A model generated the notes under the pieces. It worked only from the letters and a program-made list of their open reading frames with translations, did not search any database and was not told the origin of the DNA. The position numbers and the translations under genes were made by a program. A stretch of 53,180 nucleotides of DNA from Sulfurovum sp. (GTDB lineage: Bacteria; Campylobacterota; Campylobacteria; Campylobacterales; Sulfurovaceae), in assembly GCA_027065815.1 (NCBI GenBank), contig JAMONL010000018.1, positions 1 through 53,180 of the forward strand, read 5' to 3'. Of the stretch, positions 13,859 to 31,581 are shown piece after piece. The first letter of the stretch is position 1, and each line of letters starts with the position of its first letter.

Positions 13859-15139
13859 TTAGATGATACCGCCAGAGTTCACACCCCAGGTTGTTCTCCA
13901 TCTTGTCTTGACAAAGCTGAGTCCAAGGATTGCTACAAGTACCACTCCTGCAAAGATCATAAATCCGGCAGAGTAACCGTCAAAGGCACCTTTTGACCAC
14001 CCCAGTGTCTTAATGAGTGCTGTACCGCCAAGACCGCCTGCACATCCGACAATGCCAGTCATGATACCAATATCTTTTCCAAAACGCTGTGGTACCAGCT
14101 GGAAGACAGAACCATTTGCCATACCAAGGCTTGCCATGATCAAAAAGAGTACCACAATAGCAACAAAGAAAGGCAATTCAACCAAAGCAGTCAAAGCTAC
14201 CAATACTGCAACAGAACCATAAAAGAAATAGAGTGCTTTAACCCCGCCTATCCTGTCAGCAATAGTACCACCCACAGGTCTTAGCACTGCACCGGCAAAG
14301 ATAGTCAATGCACCAAAATATCCGGCAATGACTTTTACATTTGGTTCATTCAGAACATTGATACCGAACGCTGACATATCTGCCTGATAGGTGTTCATCA
14401 GATACACTTTCATATATCCTGCAAATCCTACGAATCCTCCAAATGAGATAGCATAGAAGAGGTTGAACCACCATGTATCTTTATCTCTTAGCAGTTTGAG
14501 ATAGTCAGCAACTTTTTTAGGTCTTGCTTTATAGACAGATTCCGGTGCATTCTTTGCTAAAAACAGATAAGCGATAAATACAGCGATAGCCATGACTGCC
14601 CCGACACCAAATACGGCTTCCCAGCCCCATTTTTCAGCGATCTTCGGAGCAAAGATAAAGTCCAGGACCACACCAATGTTACCTGCACCGGCAATTCCAA
14701 GTACCACTCCCTGGAGTTTAGGCGGGTACCATTGTCCAGCCTGCGGAAGCGCTACAGCGAATGACGCACCGGCAAATCCAAGCCCGAGTGCAACAATAAG
14801 CAGCTGATCATACGTTATGGATCCACCCTGCATATAGGCAAGAAGCAAAGAAGCGATCACAATAGCCTGAGCGATCAACGCTGTAAGTTTTGGCCCGATC
14901 TTATCGACACTGAAACCAAGTACGATACGTAAAATAGCCCCAGAAAGAATAGGAAGAGAAAGCAGTGTCGCTTTCTGACCCGCAGTAATGATCTCTCCGT
15001 GAAGTGCCAGTGCCTCTGCAATCTCTGTTGAGAGTGGACCGAGCATGGTCCATACCATAAAACTCATATCGAAATATAAAAAAGCCATAAACAGGGTTGG
15101 AAAATGCCCCTGTCCCTTTAATGCTTTAAATCCTGCCAT
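13859..15139 (-). CDS. NarK/NasA-type MFS nitrate/nitrite transporter
   Basis: 12-TM MFS, FGFVGFAGYMKVYLMNTYQ, LRPVGGTIADRIGG; start at MAGFKALKG with AGGAGA RBS rather than the ORF-track start. Confidence 0.9.
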   Translation of the reverse strand: MAGFKALKGQGHFPTLFMAFLYFDMSFMVWTMLGPLSTEIAEALALHGEIITAGQKATLLSLPILSGAILRIVLGFSVDKIGPKLTALIAQAIVIASLLLAYMQGGSITYDQLLIVALGLGFAGASFAVALPQAGQWYPPKLQGVVLGIAGAGNIGVVLDFIFAPKIAEKWGWEAVFGVGAVMAIAVFIAYLFLAKNAPESVYKARPKKVADYLKLLRDKDTWWFNLFYAISFGGFVGFAGYMKVYLMNTYQADMSAFGINVLNEPNVKVIAGYFGALTIFAGAVLRPVGGTIADRIGGVKALYFFYGSVAVLVALTALVELPFFVAIVVLFLIMASLGMANGSVFQLVPQRFGKDIGIMTGIVGCAGGLGGTALIKTLGWSKGAFDGYSAGFMIFAGVVLVAILGLSFVKTRWRTTWGVNSGGII

Positions 15140-15211: not shown

Positions 15212-15228
15212 TGATTATTTTTTAATCA
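15212..15228. promoter_or_regulatory. TGATTA-N5-TAATCA palindrome, narK-proximal
   Basis: TGATTATTTTTTAATCA; minus-strand TATAAT at 15179-15174, 41 bp from centre. Confidence 0.75.
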
Positions 15229-15288: not shown

Positions 15289-15305
15289 TGATTAAAAATT
15301 AATCA
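15289..15305. promoter_or_regulatory. TGATTA-N5-TAATCA palindrome, nirA-proximal
   Basis: TGATTAAAAATTAATCA; TATAAT at 15337-15342, 40 bp from centre. Confidence 0.75.
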
Positions 15306-15380: not shown

Positions 15381-17300
15381 ATGGAAGCCTTACAAAAAGC
15401 ATTAGAAGCAAGAAGTAAAAAAGTCAATAAAATAGAAGAAACAAAAGCACTCAAAGCACCTATGGATGTGCATGCAAAATTGACAGAGATCGCAGCAGCC
15501 GGATATGATGGCTTGGCAAAAGAGGATTCTGCCTACTTTTTAAAGTGTTTTGGGCTCTTTGACAAAGGTGAGGACTTTATGCTCAGAGTACGTATTCCTG
15601 CCGGTCAGATCAGCAATGCACAAGCCGTTCGTATTGGTGAACTTGCAGAAAAATATGGAAATGACTACATCGATATTACCACCAGAATGCAAGTAGAGCT
15701 TCGCTATCTGCAAATTGAAAACATTGCCAAGGTACTTGAAGCGTTAAAAGAGGTAGGTCTTTCTACTTTCCAGACAGGGGTAGACAATCCTCGTAACATT
15801 GTGACTGACCCACTGGATTCTGTTGCTTATGACACGATCATAGAAACAAAACCTATTATTGACGAAATGCAGACTGTTTTTGCAGAAAACCCAGAATGGA
15901 TCTCTGTACTTCCACGTAAATTCAATACAGGTATACTGGGTTCTCTCTCCAACTCCTGTAACATCTTCGGACATGACTGCTGCTTTGTCCTTGCCAATAA
16001 AGAAGGAGAATTCGGCTTTAATATTTATCTGGGTGCCCGTGTGGGTATACAGGCAAGAGATGCCAACCTCTTTGTAGGTATTGATGAAGTCCCTCTCTTT
16101 TTCAAAGCCCTTCTCAGTGTTTTCAAGATCTATGGATACCGTGACAACAGAAACAAGAACAGACTGCATTTCCTCTTACAGGATGTAGGCATAAAAACGT
16201 TTGTAGATGCAGTAAAACAGGAAGCAGGCCTGGACTTTGCCCCTGCAGGTATGACAATGGTACAGTCCCAGAACATTGCACTTGGTGCCAACAAAGTACT
16301 ACAGAGAGACGGGAAATTTGCCCACAAGACCATTGTACCTTCAGGGATATTCTCAGGAACAGACCTCATTGCCCTTGCCAAAGAGGCGCAGAACTTTGCA
16401 TCAGGTGATCTCAGGTTTACCTACGATCAGAATATCTATGTGATCAATATACCTAAAGAGGATATTGCTGCATTTGAAGCCAGTAGCATCATAGAAAAAT
16501 ATGCGCAGTACAATAACCTGTATTTTAATGACATGATCGCCTGTGCAGGAACAGCAACCTGTACTTTCGCTGTTATACCGAACAAACCAGATGCCATAGA
16601 ACTGGCACACTTCCTCAACTCTGAAGTAGCCATTGAGAATGCAAATGTACGCATGAACTGGTCTGCCTGTCCAAAAGGCTGTGGTGTACATGGTATTGCC
16701 GATATCGGTTTTGAAGGGTGTAAAGCCAAAGATTCTGAGGGGAACCGTGTGGATGGTGTACATATTTTCGTTGGAGGAAAGATCACAAGAGAAGCCAAAG
16801 AAGCACATATACTACACAAGTCCCTTCCGCTTTCAGAGGCAAAGCATCATGTCAAGTACTTACTGAAAAGTTATGCCGACAATAAACACAGAGCAGAAAC
16901 ATACGAAGCATTTGATGATCGTTTTTTAAGTCAGAACTACTCCTTTCAGGCGCTCTCATTCTATACGAAGATCAACTATGTACTCAATGAGAAACTGGGA
17001 ATGGATATAACATTTGAACTTGAGAAAGAACCTCAGTCTTCAAAAAGAGAAGAGTACGAACTCTTTGCTTTCGGACTTAAACTCTTTAAGCTGCTTACAG
17101 GTGAAAAACGTTTTCAGGGTGTGGTAGGCTTGGTTCCGACACTGGTAAGACCAAGAAAGATAAAACGTAATGAAGTCACAAAAATTAACCCGAAAGTACC
17201 TGAAAAACTCTCTGAGGTCATCTACAATATGACCCATGAAAATAAAAATGAGAGAGCACAGGTCTTCTCTGAACTCCTTGTAGCACTTAAAGAAGTCTAA
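15381..17300 (+). CDS. nirA: Ferredoxin-type nitrite/sulfite reductase haemoprotein with extra C-terminal domain
   Basis: Sirohaem/4Fe-4S motifs NSCNIFGHDC, MIACAGTATC, SACPKGCGVHGIADIGFEGC; last ~81 aa not typical of the family. Confidence 0.88.
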   Translation: MEALQKALEARSKKVNKIEETKALKAPMDVHAKLTEIAAAGYDGLAKEDSAYFLKCFGLFDKGEDFMLRVRIPAGQISNAQAVRIGELAEKYGNDYIDITTRMQVELRYLQIENIAKVLEALKEVGLSTFQTGVDNPRNIVTDPLDSVAYDTIIETKPIIDEMQTVFAENPEWISVLPRKFNTGILGSLSNSCNIFGHDCCFVLANKEGEFGFNIYLGARVGIQARDANLFVGIDEVPLFFKALLSVFKIYGYRDNRNKNRLHFLLQDVGIKTFVDAVKQEAGLDFAPAGMTMVQSQNIALGANKVLQRDGKFAHKTIVPSGIFSGTDLIALAKEAQNFASGDLRFTYDQNIYVINIPKEDIAAFEASSIIEKYAQYNNLYFNDMIACAGTATCTFAVIPNKPDAIELAHFLNSEVAIENANVRMNWSACPKGCGVHGIADIGFEGCKAKDSEGNRVDGVHIFVGGKITREAKEAHILHKSLPLSEAKHHVKYLLKSYADNKHRAETYEAFDDRFLSQNYSFQALSFYTKINYVLNEKLGMDITFELEKEPQSSKREEYELFAFGLKLFKLLTGEKRFQGVVGLVPTLVRPRKIKRNEVTKINPKVPEKLSEVIYNMTHENKNERAQVFSELLVALKEV

Positions 17301-25582: not shown

Positions 25583-26485
25583 TTAGTCTAATAACATCTT
25601 CAGATCATTCAAATCAAAAAGAAGCAGATTTTTATCTTTTATAGAAAGCAGTTCATTGGAAAACCCACTTTTTGAGAAGAGTGCATAGATATCTACAGGT
25701 ATACCAGACTGAAGCGCTTTGTCTTTAAGCTTATTGAGCTCATTTTTACAAATCTTGCGGTCTTTATACTTACACTCTCCAAGTATGAGTTTTTTATCTC
25801 TTGTCACGGCAAGGATGTCAAACTCACTGTGTTGATCCCAGTATGATCCGCTGCTGAGCAGTGGCGACCTGGATTCATAATACTTTAGCAGGAGATCATC
25901 GCAAAGCTGTTCATAGACAAGGGTTCGTAAACGTTCGTAATGCTTTTCAAAATTCTCAAGGAAAGGCCTGCTCTCACCTCTTGACAATTCTTCTCTGTAA
26001 TGGGTGACAAACCCGAACCAAAAACGCATGAAAGGCTGAACAAATCGCAGTTTATCCTGTACGCGGTAGGAACGCAGTTCTTTTTTGAGTTTGTGTTTGG
26101 GGTGTATTTTGAGCGGGCGTTCCCTCGTCTGTTCAATATAAAGTATATTCAGGGAGATCAACTCCTGGATGATCTCTTCACCAAGGCCTTCACTCAATCG
26201 GGCTTTTTTCAGTACAGCATAAAACTTTCCATCCCCTCTTGCAACAGCCATCAGCACATCACGATAAGGCGTGTCCAAAAGATAGGAAGGGGAGACAAGA
26301 TGTTGGAACTTGCTGAAGTTCTGTACGAAGTTATTTTCAACCATAGAAAAAACATTATCAAAAAAATCCAATTCGATACTCTCTTCTATCCCGCCTAAAA
26401 TAGAAAAGTATTCAACAGATTGCTCCAGCGTCAAATGGGGGTTGTAGTTACAAAAATAATTAAATGCGTTTTTAATGGTACCCAT
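25583..26485 (-). CDS. DUF234/PD-(D/E)XK-type protein without AAA ATPase domain
   Basis: FRFWFGFV... core then nuclease-like SEFDILAVTRDKKLILGECKYK; no Walker motifs. Confidence 0.75.
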   Translation of the reverse strand: MGTIKNAFNYFCNYNPHLTLEQSVEYFSILGGIEESIELDFFDNVFSMVENNFVQNFSKFQHLVSPSYLLDTPYRDVLMAVARGDGKFYAVLKKARLSEGLGEEIIQELISLNILYIEQTRERPLKIHPKHKLKKELRSYRVQDKLRFVQPFMRFWFGFVTHYREELSRGESRPFLENFEKHYERLRTLVYEQLCDDLLLKYYESRSPLLSSGSYWDQHSEFDILAVTRDKKLILGECKYKDRKICKNELNKLKDKALQSGIPVDIYALFSKSGFSNELLSIKDKNLLLFDLNDLKMLLD

Positions 26486-26547
26486 ACCTCACTTTATTCA
26501 TGAATATAAGTTTAACATACATTTGATATAATGTCTTTATAGTAAAA

Positions 26548-26564
26548 TGATTATTTTTTAATCA
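26548..26564. promoter_or_regulatory. TGATTA-N5-TAATCA palindrome between -10 and start of the Fis-type regulator
   Basis: TGATTATTTTTTAATCA; upstream TATAAT at 26527-26532; start codon at 26590. Confidence 0.7.
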
Positions 26565-26589: not shown

Positions 26590-27324
26590 ATGGAACAATT
26601 TTTCACCAAATCTGAACATGTACAGAATATTATCAAGGGTTTCAACCTTACAAAAACACTCTTTGTGTCATCTATTATCATCGGGGAAGAGAATATTGGG
26701 AAAAAATTGTTGGTAAGACATCTCTTTCCAAATGCCCGTGTGGTCTCAGGTGATGACCAGGAAGCCGTTGTAGCAGCTTTGAGCGAATATGATGAGCTCA
26801 TCATCACGGATTTTGAGAAGTTAAGTAATCAGGAATCTCTGAACCTTGACAATAAACGTATTATCGCTACGGCCAATTATATAGGAAACAAACAGACCAT
26901 CGACAATCTTTTTGCTTTTATCTATACACTTCCCTCACTTAAAGAACGTCTTGAAGATACTGCCCATATCAAAGCGCTTTATATCAAAGAAGCCTGTGAT
27001 AATCTTATGATTGACATGGATGAGATGTCAACTCAGGATATACCGGTAAACCTGACACAGAACTCAAAAAGCCTTAAAAGCACTATATACAAATACCTGA
27101 TGACACATTCTATGAATAAAAAAGATATACAGGAAGCTGTTCATAGCTATATCCTGAAAGAGCTTCATGGGAATAACGGTTACAAAGAGCATTTGTCACT
27201 CTATGAAAAACCGCTTATAGAAGCCGGTCTGCAGAAGTTTGGATCTCAATTGCAACTTTCACAAATACTCGGGATAAACAGAAATACCTTACGAAAGAAG
27301 ATACATGAACACGGAATCGATTAA
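26590..27324 (+). CDS. Degenerate NtrC-like regulator: reduced AAA+ domain plus Fis-type HTH, no receiver domain
   Basis: Walker A-like IIGEENIGKKLLVRHLFP; DELIITDFEKL, KRIIATANYIGN, LPSLKERLEDTAHI match sigma54-activator blocks; C-terminal AGLQKFGSQLQLSQILGINRNTLRKKI. Confidence 0.82.
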   Translation: MEQFFTKSEHVQNIIKGFNLTKTLFVSSIIIGEENIGKKLLVRHLFPNARVVSGDDQEAVVAALSEYDELIITDFEKLSNQESLNLDNKRIIATANYIGNKQTIDNLFAFIYTLPSLKERLEDTAHIKALYIKEACDNLMIDMDEMSTQDIPVNLTQNSKSLKSTIYKYLMTHSMNKKDIQEAVHSYILKELHGNNGYKEHLSLYEKPLIEAGLQKFGSQLQLSQILGINRNTLRKKIHEHGID

Positions 27325-28006
27325 TTTTCAATCCTTTTTGGATTGGGACAATAGTCCTTTTATACTTTTCTCTTCTTTAGGGAAAATACTCTACCTGAAC
27401 AACTCTGCAGAGATCCTTTTTGGATATGTCTCAAAACAGGAACTTTATGACCTGGCACTTGCTTATGCTCCACAAAATTTTGGATACAAGACCACAACCC
27501 TTTCCCTAAACTACGACTCTTTTACCTTTTATGCCATCACCATCGGCTATGAGAACGAAGAGCAGATATCCATACGCTTTTACAATGCACCGAGAATACG
27601 TTCTACCACACCAATAGAAAAAGACAAACTGGTCACAACCGATATCAATCTGCTGCTTGAGGCGAACATTGCGCTGTTCAGGACAAAAAATCCCAATCAT
27701 CTTCAGCTTTTGACCGATCATGATATCCCTGCTTTCAAAATAGACCAGAACAATTTTTCCAAACTGCTCAGAAAAACACTGGATTCATTCAGGGCATCAG
27801 ACTCCATCAACATTACTCTTAAACTGCTCACCGGTGAACATGTGATCATTTCAGGAAAGAAGAAAGCGATCGTACAACTCTCCATTGAAGCCAACGGTAG
27901 ATATTCCGATGCTGATGAAGAGGTCAAAAGTATTGCAATGCAGTGCCATATTGCCCATCTTCTAAAAGAGAGAACCATAAAACTTGAAATTCCCCTTATC
28001 ACTTAA
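27305..28006 (+). CDS. PAS-domain NtrB-like protein with degenerate kinase region
   Basis: N-terminal PAS (SPFILFSSLGKILYLNNSAEILFGYVSKQEL); later DIPAFKIDQNNFSKLLRKTLDSF resembles a degenerate HATPase N-box; no H-box seen; overlaps upstream gene by 20 nt. Confidence 0.72.
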   Translation: MNTESINFQSFLDWDNSPFILFSSLGKILYLNNSAEILFGYVSKQELYDLALAYAPQNFGYKTTTLSLNYDSFTFYAITIGYENEEQISIRFYNAPRIRSTTPIEKDKLVTTDINLLLEANIALFRTKNPNHLQLLTDHDIPAFKIDQNNFSKLLRKTLDSFRASDSINITLKLLTGEHVIISGKKKAIVQLSIEANGRYSDADEEVKSIAMQCHIAHLLKERTIKLEIPLIT

Positions 28007-28062: not shown

Positions 28063-28079
28063 TGATTAAAAATTAATCA
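28063..28079. promoter_or_regulatory. TGATTA-N5-TAATCA palindrome upstream of amt1
   Basis: TGATTAAAAATTAATCA; TATGAT at 28111-28116, 40 bp from centre. Confidence 0.75.
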
Positions 28080-28150
28080 AACCTTCTCCGCTAAAAACAT
28101 CGATTCATGTTATGATTATTCCGTAAAAACACACATTAAAGGAATAAAGC

Positions 28151-29458
28151 ATGAAGTTAAAACTTTTCGCTCTACTGGCAGCACTCTTGCCAATTGCTGC
28201 ATTTGCAGAAGACAAACTCGATTCGGGTGATACAGCATGGATGATGATGTCCACTGCACTCGTTCTACTTATGACACCGGCAGGTCTTGCACTTTTCTAT
28301 GCAGGTATGTCAAGAACTAAAAATGCATTGAATACATATGCAATGGTCATGGGTGCATTCGTACTGGCATTTGTTGTATGGGTCATTGCAGGATATTCAC
28401 TTGCTTTCGGTACTTCTGAAACTGCAGGTATTCAGCAATTCATTGGTGGATTCGGTAATGTATTCCTGAACGGTGTTGACTGGAAAGACCTTAGTGGTAC
28501 TTACCCGACATTTGTATTTATTGCATTCCAAGGAACATTTGCTGCGATCACAGTAGCGATCGCTTCAGGTTCTGTGATCGGACGTATGAAGTTCTCAACA
28601 TGGATGGTTATCGTAGCCCTATGGGGTCTTGTTGTTTATGCTCCTATTACACACATGGTATGGGGTGGAGACGGTGCCCTTCTTTTTGATGCCGGTGCAC
28701 TTGACTTTGCCGGCGGTACAGTTGTACACATGAACGGTGGTTTGGCTGGTCTTGTACTTGCTATCCTTGTTGGTAAAAGAACGGGGTATCCAAAAATTGC
28801 TATGAAACCATTCTCAATTATCTTTACTGCTGCCGGTGCAGCACTACTATGGTTCGGTTGGTATGGATTTAATGCTGGTTCAGCATTTGGTGCAAATGCC
28901 ATTGCAGGTGTTGCACTGTTGACCACAACCATTGCTACGGCAGCTGCCGGACTTACCTGGTTGATCATCGAATGGGTTGTCTATAAGAAACCGACACTTC
29001 TTGGTATCGCATCAGGAATCGTTGCCGGTTTAGTTGCTATTACACCTGCTGCAGGTTTCGTATCTGTTGGTGGTGCATTTATCATAGGTATCGGTGGAGC
29101 GATCATCGGATTCTTCGGTGTTGTCAAATTGAAAAAAATGTTTGGATATGATGATTCTCTGGATGCATTCGGTATCCACTTCCTCGCTGGTCTTTGGGGA
29201 GCATTGATGACAGGTGTACTTGCATTGAACGACAAAGAACTTCTCTGGGACGGTCCGCTTAAAGAGAGTGGTGACAGAATGGGACAGTTCATGGTTCAAG
29301 TTCAATCCGTAGTAGTTGTAGGTCTTTGGACATTGATCGGTACTGTGGTTGTTTATTATGTAGCATCCGCATTGACAGGTGGTGCAAGAGTAGATGCTGA
29401 GACAGAAGAGATGGGTCTTGACGAATCAGTACACGGTGAAAGAGGTATGAACCTTTAA
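28151..29458 (+). CDS. amt: Ammonium transporter (Amt), signal-peptide-bearing type
   Basis: DTAWMMMSTALVLLMTPAGLALFYAGMSRTKN and typical Amt core. Confidence 0.96.
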   Translation: MKLKLFALLAALLPIAAFAEDKLDSGDTAWMMMSTALVLLMTPAGLALFYAGMSRTKNALNTYAMVMGAFVLAFVVWVIAGYSLAFGTSETAGIQQFIGGFGNVFLNGVDWKDLSGTYPTFVFIAFQGTFAAITVAIASGSVIGRMKFSTWMVIVALWGLVVYAPITHMVWGGDGALLFDAGALDFAGGTVVHMNGGLAGLVLAILVGKRTGYPKIAMKPFSIIFTAAGAALLWFGWYGFNAGSAFGANAIAGVALLTTTIATAAAGLTWLIIEWVVYKKPTLLGIASGIVAGLVAITPAAGFVSVGGAFIIGIGGAIIGFFGVVKLKKMFGYDDSLDAFGIHFLAGLWGALMTGVLALNDKELLWDGPLKESGDRMGQFMVQVQSVVVVGLWTLIGTVVVYYVASALTGGARVDAETEEMGLDESVHGERGMNL

Positions 29459-29478: not shown

Positions 29479-29841
<363 letters not shown>

Positions 29842-29905: not shown

Positions 29906-29922
29906 TGATTAAAAATTAATCA
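29906..29922. promoter_or_regulatory. TGATTA-N5-TAATCA palindrome upstream of amt2
   Basis: TGATTAAAAATTAATCA; no good -10 at the 40-bp position. Confidence 0.7.
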
Positions 29923-30040: not shown

Positions 30041-31213
30041 ATGGAAATGAATTATGTCATCGATACCTTCTTTGCCATCTTTGCCATGACCCTCATCATC
30101 TTTATGGTACCCGGGTTTGCAATGCTTGAAGCGGGATTGGTAAGAACAAAGAATGTCACTTCTGTTTTAACAGTCAATGTTATGATCTATGCGGTAGCTT
30201 CATTGGCCTTTATGCTCATAGGCTACACATACGCATTTGGATCCTGGGACCATCAGGATATCATGAGCAAATATGCTTTTTTCCTCTTTCAAATGGCTTT
30301 TGTAGGAAAAGTTGTCAATATTATGAGTGGCGGGGTCTCTGAACGCTCCCGTATCATTCCTCTGGTACTTTTCACCATTGCGGTAGGTGCATTCATCTAC
30401 CCTACCATCGTCAACATCACCTGGGGAGTGAATTTCCTTTCCGGTACGGCATTTGATATTTCTGCTATGCATGACCTCGCCGGTTCCACTGTCATCCATT
30501 CTACCGGTGGTTGGGCACTGCTGGCCGCCATTCTCATTATGGGATCCAGACGGGGAAGATTCAAAAAGAATGGCGCCATACAGGTTATCCCTGCTTCTAA
30601 CATTCCACTTGTTGTACTTGGTGCTTTTTTACTCTGGATCGGTTGGTTCGGCTTCAACGGTGGATCTGTCGGAGCCATTTCAAGCAAAGAGAATGCCGAT
30701 GCAGTAGCACTGACGATCATGAATACAAATACATCCGGTCTTGCCGGTGCGATCGTCGGATGGCTCTTTACCTATGTACGGTATAAAAAATTCGATGTTA
30801 CTATGATCCTCAACGGTGCATTGGGTGGGTTGGTCGCTATTACCGCGGGTCCTGACCTCTATGATATCTATACACCTATACTCATTGGTGCCATTGGTGG
30901 TGCACTCGTTGTGATCTTTGTACCAATATTTGATAGACTAAAAATGGATGATCCTGTGGGTGCTCTTTCCGTGCACCTGGTGAACGGTATCTGGGGTACC
31001 CTAGCGGTAGGGATCTTTGCAGATGTCTCTCTCTGGGCACAGTTCAAAGGTATTGCTTTGGTAGCTCTGATCGTATTCCCTCTCTCTTTTGTGACCATTT
31101 ACGTGATCAATAAGATCTTTAATTTACGTGCAGGAGATGACGAGCAGCTTGAAGGTATTGATGCCATTGAATGTGGTATAGAAGCCTATCCGGAATTTAA
31201 ACGCAGTATTTAA
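30041..31213 (+). CDS. amt: Ammonium transporter (Amt), second clade without signal peptide
   Basis: FMVPGFAMLEAGLVRTKNVTSVLTVNVMIYAVASLAFMLIGYTYAFG; TAGGAGATCTCT RBS. Confidence 0.96.
   Translation: MEMNYVIDTFFAIFAMTLIIFMVPGFAMLEAGLVRTKNVTSVLTVNVMIYAVASLAFMLIGYTYAFGSWDHQDIMSKYAFFLFQMAFVGKVVNIMSGGVSERSRIIPLVLFTIAVGAFIYPTIVNITWGVNFLSGTAFDISAMHDLAGSTVIHSTGGWALLAAILIMGSRRGRFKKNGAIQVIPASNIPLVVLGAFLLWIGWFGFNGGSVGAISSKENADAVALTIMNTNTSGLAGAIVGWLFTYVRYKKFDVTMILNGALGGLVAITAGPDLYDIYTPILIGAIGGALVVIFVPIFDRLKMDDPVGALSVHLVNGIWGTLAVGIFADVSLWAQFKGIALVALIVFPLSFVTIYVINKIFNLRAGDDEQLEGIDAIECGIEAYPEFKRSI

Positions 31214-31236: not shown

Positions 31237-31581
<345 letters not shown>

Follow-up and report, generated by a model that had tools for sequence, protein, structure and literature searches.

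A putative phosphotransfer-free descendant of NtrB/NtrC and its candidate nitrogen operator in Sulfurovum and other Campylobacteria

The A2-A1 locus and its neighbours

The window, the whole analysed stretch of 53,180 nt, contains two overlapping genes on the forward strand. A2 (26590..27324, 244 aa) was predicted from profiles as an NtrC relic composed of a reduced AAA+ domain and a Fis helix-turn-helix. A1 (27305..28006, 233 aa, ATG start), defined by its open reading frame, its relatives and profiles, is a PAS protein with a putative kinase-less remnant of NtrB, and its ATG is located 20 nt inside the 3' end of the A2 gene. An earlier note on this DNA had proposed the reading frame and its overlap with an NtrC-like gene, and both proved real. 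A scan with one genome per species yielded 28 relatives of A1, mostly from Sulfurovum genomes (66-88% identity). A2 is situated directly 5' of A1 in the 26 inspected loci (shortened as read in L017), and the 20-nt overlap is kept in most of them. The mean column identity is 80% for A1 (25 Sulfurovum-type sequences) and 75% for A2 (24 sequences), and this conservation across Sulfurovum relatives indicates that the pair is not decaying. A1 and A2 as functionless remnants of a lost NtrB/NtrC would agree with the disappearance of hallmark ancestral residues from both proteins, but the probability of this reading is negligible given the column identities, the strict co-retention of the pair in 166 genomes and the maintained operator (see below). 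A pseudogene status of the two genes was rejected on conservation.

Downstream of A1, the same strand encodes the ammonium transporter amt1 (28151..29458), the PII protein glnK1 (29500..29841), a second ammonium transporter, amt2 (30041..31213), and a second PII protein, glnK2 (31240..31581). The two glnK genes had been described as following A1 immediately, which is incorrect, since amt1 intervenes. The window also holds a nitrate-assimilation cluster with a narK-like nitrate transporter (13859..15139, reverse strand) and a nirA-like nitrite/sulfite reductase (15381..17300, forward strand). All six open reading frames were named from sequence, and amt1, amt2, narK and nirA are targets of the candidate operator. 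A DUF234 protein is encoded upstream of A2 and divergent from it (25583-26485); the A2 operator (26548) lies 63 bp before its start.

Relationship of A1 and A2 to NtrB and NtrC

The PAS domain of A1 comprises approximately residues 9-95 (27329..27589, forward strand). The single A1 protein had no match above cut-off in Pfam, NCBIfam or PDB, and its match to Pfam PAS was subthreshold (E=0.051). In an alignment of 82 diverse relatives (A3), in contrast, 33 members matched Pfam PAS, the best with 8e-7. The AlphaFold2 model of A1 is weak (pLDDT 60.6) with a poorly modelled C-terminal part, and the PAS domain alone was taken as usable. A fold search with this low-confidence model returned mostly PAS domains, among them the ones in TraJ and NtrB; the NifL-NifA complex ranked second without significance. 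The PAS domain that the earlier note had called clear thus stands on the family and the fold search, and is not clear from A1 alone.

Behind the PAS domain, the layout of a DHp end followed by an N-box had been noticed. The NR(II)/NtrB equivalog model was matched by 21 of the 82 family members (best 1.9e-6). The matches inspected individually were weak and located beyond the PAS domain in the linker/N-box region, at model positions 202-281 of 349. With the equivalog cut-off of NF008293 (240 bits) as the threshold for NtrB membership, the A1 family members stay below it with weak matches at most, although PAS followed by a DHp-CA linker, a feature of membership, is present in the family. The part of A1 behind the PAS domain was also compared by hhalign with a profile of 49 histidine kinases. 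The comparison scored 25.0 over 64 columns, against no more than 17.6 in 60 column shuffles and 13.1 for the profile in reverse; its hhalign probability of 14% is low in absolute terms. The match covers approximately residues 109-173, spanning the DHp-CA linker and the N-box; the remnant was placed at about residues 109-169 (27629..27811, forward strand), and no profile match to kinases was found past the N-box. Accordingly, the layout was recovered, and of the remote-homology and structural modelling that the earlier note had recommended, the former gave a kinase-linker match above shuffles and the latter a poor model usable for the PAS domain alone.

The PAS domain of A1 runs almost straight into the DHp-CA linker, and the H-box helix is absent. 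The lack of a phospho-acceptor His, read initially from the single sequence, holds for the family, as no conserved His column is found among the 82 members (maximum 26%). Four HDLN/HDIN matches, considered as an H-box, were discarded because they sit before the PAS core in the motif E[HY]D[LIY]NPF. G-boxes were likewise missing in all 82 members, as had been claimed for A1, and the C-terminal part at the place of the former ATP-binding region (27812..28003, forward strand) contains none. An intact H-box or ATP-binding site, the finding that the earlier note had set against its own reading, was searched for in the 82 A1 members and not found. Its statement that the N-box Asn is not seen holds in part: Asn is not conserved among the 82 members at the usual second N-box position, but 30 of them have Asn at position 156, which aligns with the N-box (LLNKI...). 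A weak match to eIF-5A at the C-terminus of A1 was judged to be due to chance.

The NtrB ancestry of A1 as far as the N-box is fairly well supported by these sequence comparisons, and the fold of the last 60 residues is unproven. Alternatively, A1 could be a PAS sensor unrelated to NtrB that still partners A2 and resembles the kinase linker by chance. The missing G-boxes and H-box, the low hhalign probability and the poor structural model of the C-terminal part would all fit such a protein. We nonetheless regard it as decidedly unlikely, given that 21 of 82 members match NR(II), the inspected ones in the same linker/N-box region, that the kinase score lies far above the shuffled controls, that Asn occupies the N-box-aligned position in 30 of 82 and that the partner A2 is an NtrC relic.

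The affiliation of A2 was examined in an alignment of 60 diverse members. All 60 matched the NR(I) model TIGR01818 (best 4.6e-14), and the A2 profile matched NtrC-family structures with 1.8e-11. Walker A is kept in 57 and the LxxRxxD segment in 59 of the 60 members. The GAFTGA loop for sigma-54 was found in none of them. No receiver was matched in A2, whose 244 residues start at the AAA+ part; the partner had indeed been described as lacking this domain. The C-terminus is a Fis helix-turn-helix with HTH_8 above cut-off, the sole above-cut-off HTH_8 found in the Sulfurovum sp. genome. The AlphaFold2 model of A2 (pLDDT 80) matches AAA+ proteins, among them RuvB, NtrX, PspF and NtrC1. Matches to PF00158 in the genome reach at most 34.8 bits and presumably represent other AAA+ proteins; the ClpX of one relative also passes the PF00158 cut-off. 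A sigma-54 DNA-binding domain was not found in the Sulfurovum sp. genome or in seven other sampled genomes of the genus. Since the assembly is 86% complete, the absence from this one genome is provisional; the sampled genus shows it throughout, however, and A2 is therefore unlikely to be an ordinary sigma-54 activator in the Sulfurovum lineage.

Distribution of the pair and the candidate operator

Strong A1 matches and strong A2 matches occur in an identical set of 166 out of 398 Campylobacteria genomes without exception, counted per genome with kinship ignored. The two distributions disagree solely in three weak matches on each side, which were set aside (G092, G112 and G168 for A1; G174, G187 and G222 for A2). 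An NtrB above the family cut-off was found in none of the 398 genomes. In the genera g1, g4, g14 and g47 some genomes have both genes and others neither, and some losses of the pair look recent. In many families A1 and A2 are unlinked. Where A1 is not beside A2, it is located directly behind rpoD in most families. The unlinked A2 is found between an FKBP gene and fabD, beside amt, or overlapping or abutting glnD. Both genes lie together beside glnK-amt in the families f4 (L073, L188, L190, L193), f6 (L185), f8 (L187, L192) and f9 (L194). Because they are kept or lost together even when unlinked, A1 and A2 very probably work together, and the recurrence of amt, glnK and glnD as neighbours points to nitrogen control as their task.

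Three further observations concern these loci. In Arcobacter-like genomes (L158, L167, L170, L172, L176 and L179), A2 overlaps or abuts a gene of about 845 codons; the copy in L172 was tested and is glnD, coding for PII uridylyltransferase. Two f5 genomes have two copies of A1 (L057/L069 in G117 and L058/L076 in G396), one of which adjoins A2 while the other overlaps the end of clpX. In several families a conserved protein of about 285 aa is encoded between amt and A2 (L172:4151-5014, L186:6506-7369, L188:6118-6951 and L262 from about 1247); it had no convincing Pfam match, has its own operator in L262 and may also belong to the nitrogen regulon.

The same 17-bp palindrome, TGATTA-W5-TAATCA, stands upstream of amt1, amt2 and A2. 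The candidate operator before A2-A1 (TGATTATTTTTTAATCA, 26548..26564) lies between a TATAAT and the ATG, 25 bp from the latter. The others lie before amt1-glnK1 (28063..28079), before amt2-glnK2 (29906..29922) and, in the nitrate-assimilation cluster, between narK and nirA, one nearer narK (15212..15228) and one nearer nirA (15289..15305). In the window, TGATTAWWWWWTAATCA occurs five times in perfect form and seven times with up to two mismatches, compared to a maximum of two in shuffled sequences. The 2.13-Mb genome has seven sites at up to one mismatch, all of them perfect, versus none for the reversed control. Five of the seven are situated at nitrogen-assimilation promoters or at A2-A1 itself. 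Other Sulfurovum loci carry the palindrome at corresponding positions, and most Sulfurovum relatives have one at the A2 promoter. At glnA, neither a perfect site nor one with a single mismatch was found in the Sulfurovum sp. genome (86% complete). Of the remaining two perfect sites, one (L233:3786, G000:C27:8285) lies 67 bp before a porin-like gene of 384 aa and the other (L234:3819, G000:C222:30818) 88 bp before a gene of 189 aa, which is followed by an oxidase-/nitric-oxide-reductase-like gene.

Across the class, at least one perfect site was present in 111 of 166 genomes with the pair (285 sites) and in 13 of 232 without it (13 sites; Fisher p=4e-41, with the kinship of genomes ignored), and a control pattern gave 12 sites in all. 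The genes downstream in other families included amt, glnK, glnA, narK, nirA, nrtA-like and cobA-like ones (glnA, nrtA and cobA named from sequence). TGATTA-W5-TAATCA fits the Fis core site consensus GnTYAWWWWWTRAnC (PMC4278767) and shares its length and symmetry with the enterobacterial NtrC site, a 17-bp palindrome like TGCACCAnnnTGGTGCA (PMC8743547). It is likely the operator of the nitrogen regulon, and a nitrogen regulon of the pair is well supported. A2 is presumably the protein that binds it. Alternatively, the palindrome might serve a different regulator, with A1-A2 having some other task, as the Arcobacter-like genomes (f6) could suggest, in which the pair is present, mostly without a good site. 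This appears very unlikely, since the sites track the pair across the class, A2 has the sole above-cut-off Fis-type helix-turn-helix found in the genome, the site fits the Fis consensus and the A2 promoter itself bears one in most Sulfurovum relatives. In Arcobacter-like genomes (L238-L241), matches to the operator that fall within genes were attributed to chance. Palindromes identical or nearly identical to TGTATA-W5-TATACA were seen near amt or A2 in L167, L179, L186 and L187; they have the geometry of the operator, stand at loci where the TGATTA form is missing and may be diverged operators.

The arrangement of the sites relative to putative promoters is constrained. In 22 of 31 target cases, the start of a TATAAT-like hexamer lies at a distance of 40-41 bp from the centre of the site (null mean 1.2, maximum 6). 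For amt1, the candidate -10 box TATGAT (28111..28116, forward strand) is placed 40 bp from the operator centre; amt2 has no -10 box at the expected spacing. With this spacing the site would lie at about -52 of a sigma-70 promoter, the position of an activator, and the nitrogen-gene targets look like sigma-70 promoters. At A2 promoters the site precedes the ATG by 14-36 bp and, wherever a -10 box is visible, follows that box. In the window the candidate -10 box of the A2-A1 operon, read from the sequence, is TATAAT (26527..26532, forward strand), and the same arrangement was observed in several relatives. A site past the -10 box is the position of a repressor, and A2 is hence read as a repressor of its own operon.

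Proposed mechanism and comparison with known systems

We propose that a large part of the Campylobacteria controls nitrogen through A1-A2, a pair that would be shortened from NtrB/NtrC with loss of phosphotransfer. The Fis-type helix-turn-helix of A2 would bind TGATTA-W5-TAATCA. At about -52 of nitrogen-assimilation promoters, A2 would activate the sigma-70 polymerase, and past the -10 box of its own promoter it would repress itself. Since receiver and kinase are both missing, A1 plausibly reaches A2 through contact: A1 would bind A2 directly and set its activity in the style of NifL-NifA, holding it off or letting it work in response to PII (GlnK) and/or a signal at the PAS domain. The architecture of the proteins, the lost motifs, the strict co-occurrence, the operator with its targets and the fixed -10 spacing are computed observations. 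The contact and its sign are suggested by analogy, and PII as an input to A1 is a guess. Taken as a whole, a phosphotransfer-free pair with A2 as sigma-70 activator and self-repressor and A1 acting by contact is probable. The earlier idea that this Ntr pair has given up phosphotransfer is supported well past the window: the two genes strictly co-occur, they are repeatedly linked to amt, glnK and glnD, a candidate operator precedes nitrogen genes, and H-box, G-boxes, receiver and GAFTGA are all missing. New relative to that idea are the operator itself, the spread of the pair through the class, the position of A1 next to rpoD and an RpoN that seems to be lacking from the genome and the sampled genus.

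The position of A1 immediately after rpoD, seen in most families that do not have it next to A2, could also mean that A1 is a positive adapter that bridges A2 and RpoD rather than an inhibitor, so that A2 activates only with A1. The resemblance of the targets to sigma-70 promoters and the lack of any other evident part of A2 for contacting polymerase speak for such a role. It is nevertheless unlikely, as the proximity to rpoD may simply serve coupled expression and the family of the window has A1 with A2 and amt instead. We tentatively extend the preferred reading, a pair with A1 acting on A2 by contact, to the class: its nitrogen regulon may be run by a phosphotransfer-free NtrB/NtrC descendant, a kinase-less PAS protein, encoded behind rpoD in many families, together with a sigma-70 activator devoid of an input domain, with PII or metabolite status coupled by contact.

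No description of the A1-A2 pair was found in the open literature searched, which largely excludes subscription journals. A large regulon study left out the Epsilonproteobacteria as orthologues of the target regulators, NtrC among them, are absent (PMC5343134). The control of nitrogen assimilation in Campylobacterota appears to be an open gap, for which the pair and its operator offer a concrete, testable answer in many sulfur-oxidising and vent bacteria. The group carrying this putative stripped-down NtrB/NtrC switch is large and common at deep-sea vents. If the proposal is true, A1-A2 would be a natural two-component system in which partnership and regulon have outlived the receiver, the kinase and the need for sigma-54.

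NifL-NifA of Azotobacter and Klebsiella resembles A1-A2 in that a kinase-like PAS protein without phosphotransfer stands beside an NtrC-family activator; in the family of the window the two genes form an operon. NifA has retained a GAF domain and acts together with sigma-54, whereas A2 has neither an input domain nor GAFTGA and no sigma-54 was found in the genome or the genus sample. NifL binds NifA and thereby inhibits it, the C-terminal part of NifL mediates the action of GlnK, and the C-terminus of Klebsiella NifL has little GHKL homology (PMC9866876). In contrast to NifL, A1 has one PAS domain and no H domain, and the regulon of A1-A2 is nitrogen assimilation, not nitrogen fixation.

The NtrC proteins of Rhodobacter capsulatus and Caulobacter lack GAFTGA and regulate sigma-70 promoters of nitrogen genes (PMC10274813). 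Like A2, they miss the sigma-54 contact loop, and A2 would likewise serve sigma-70 nitrogen promoters. However, these proteins still have a receiver, the phosphorylation of which is important (PMC10274813), and a genuine NtrB kinase, and A2 and A1 have neither. Fis shares with A2 the C-terminal helix-turn-helix and a matching core site (PMC4278767), but A2 has an NtrC-type AAA+ remnant in front, and its predicted operator is a strict 17-bp palindrome with just seven occurrences in the genome. Enterobacterial NtrB-NtrC is linked to A1-A2 by ancestry according to sequence models, by the kind of presumed targets (glnA, amt and glnK) and by a 17-bp palindromic candidate site. Compared to this system, A1 lacks the H-box, a complete N-box and the G-boxes, A2 lacks receiver and GAFTGA, the half-site of the operator differs and the promoters are of the sigma-70 type. 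The pair would be Ntr by descent and NifL-NifA-like in its presumed logic.
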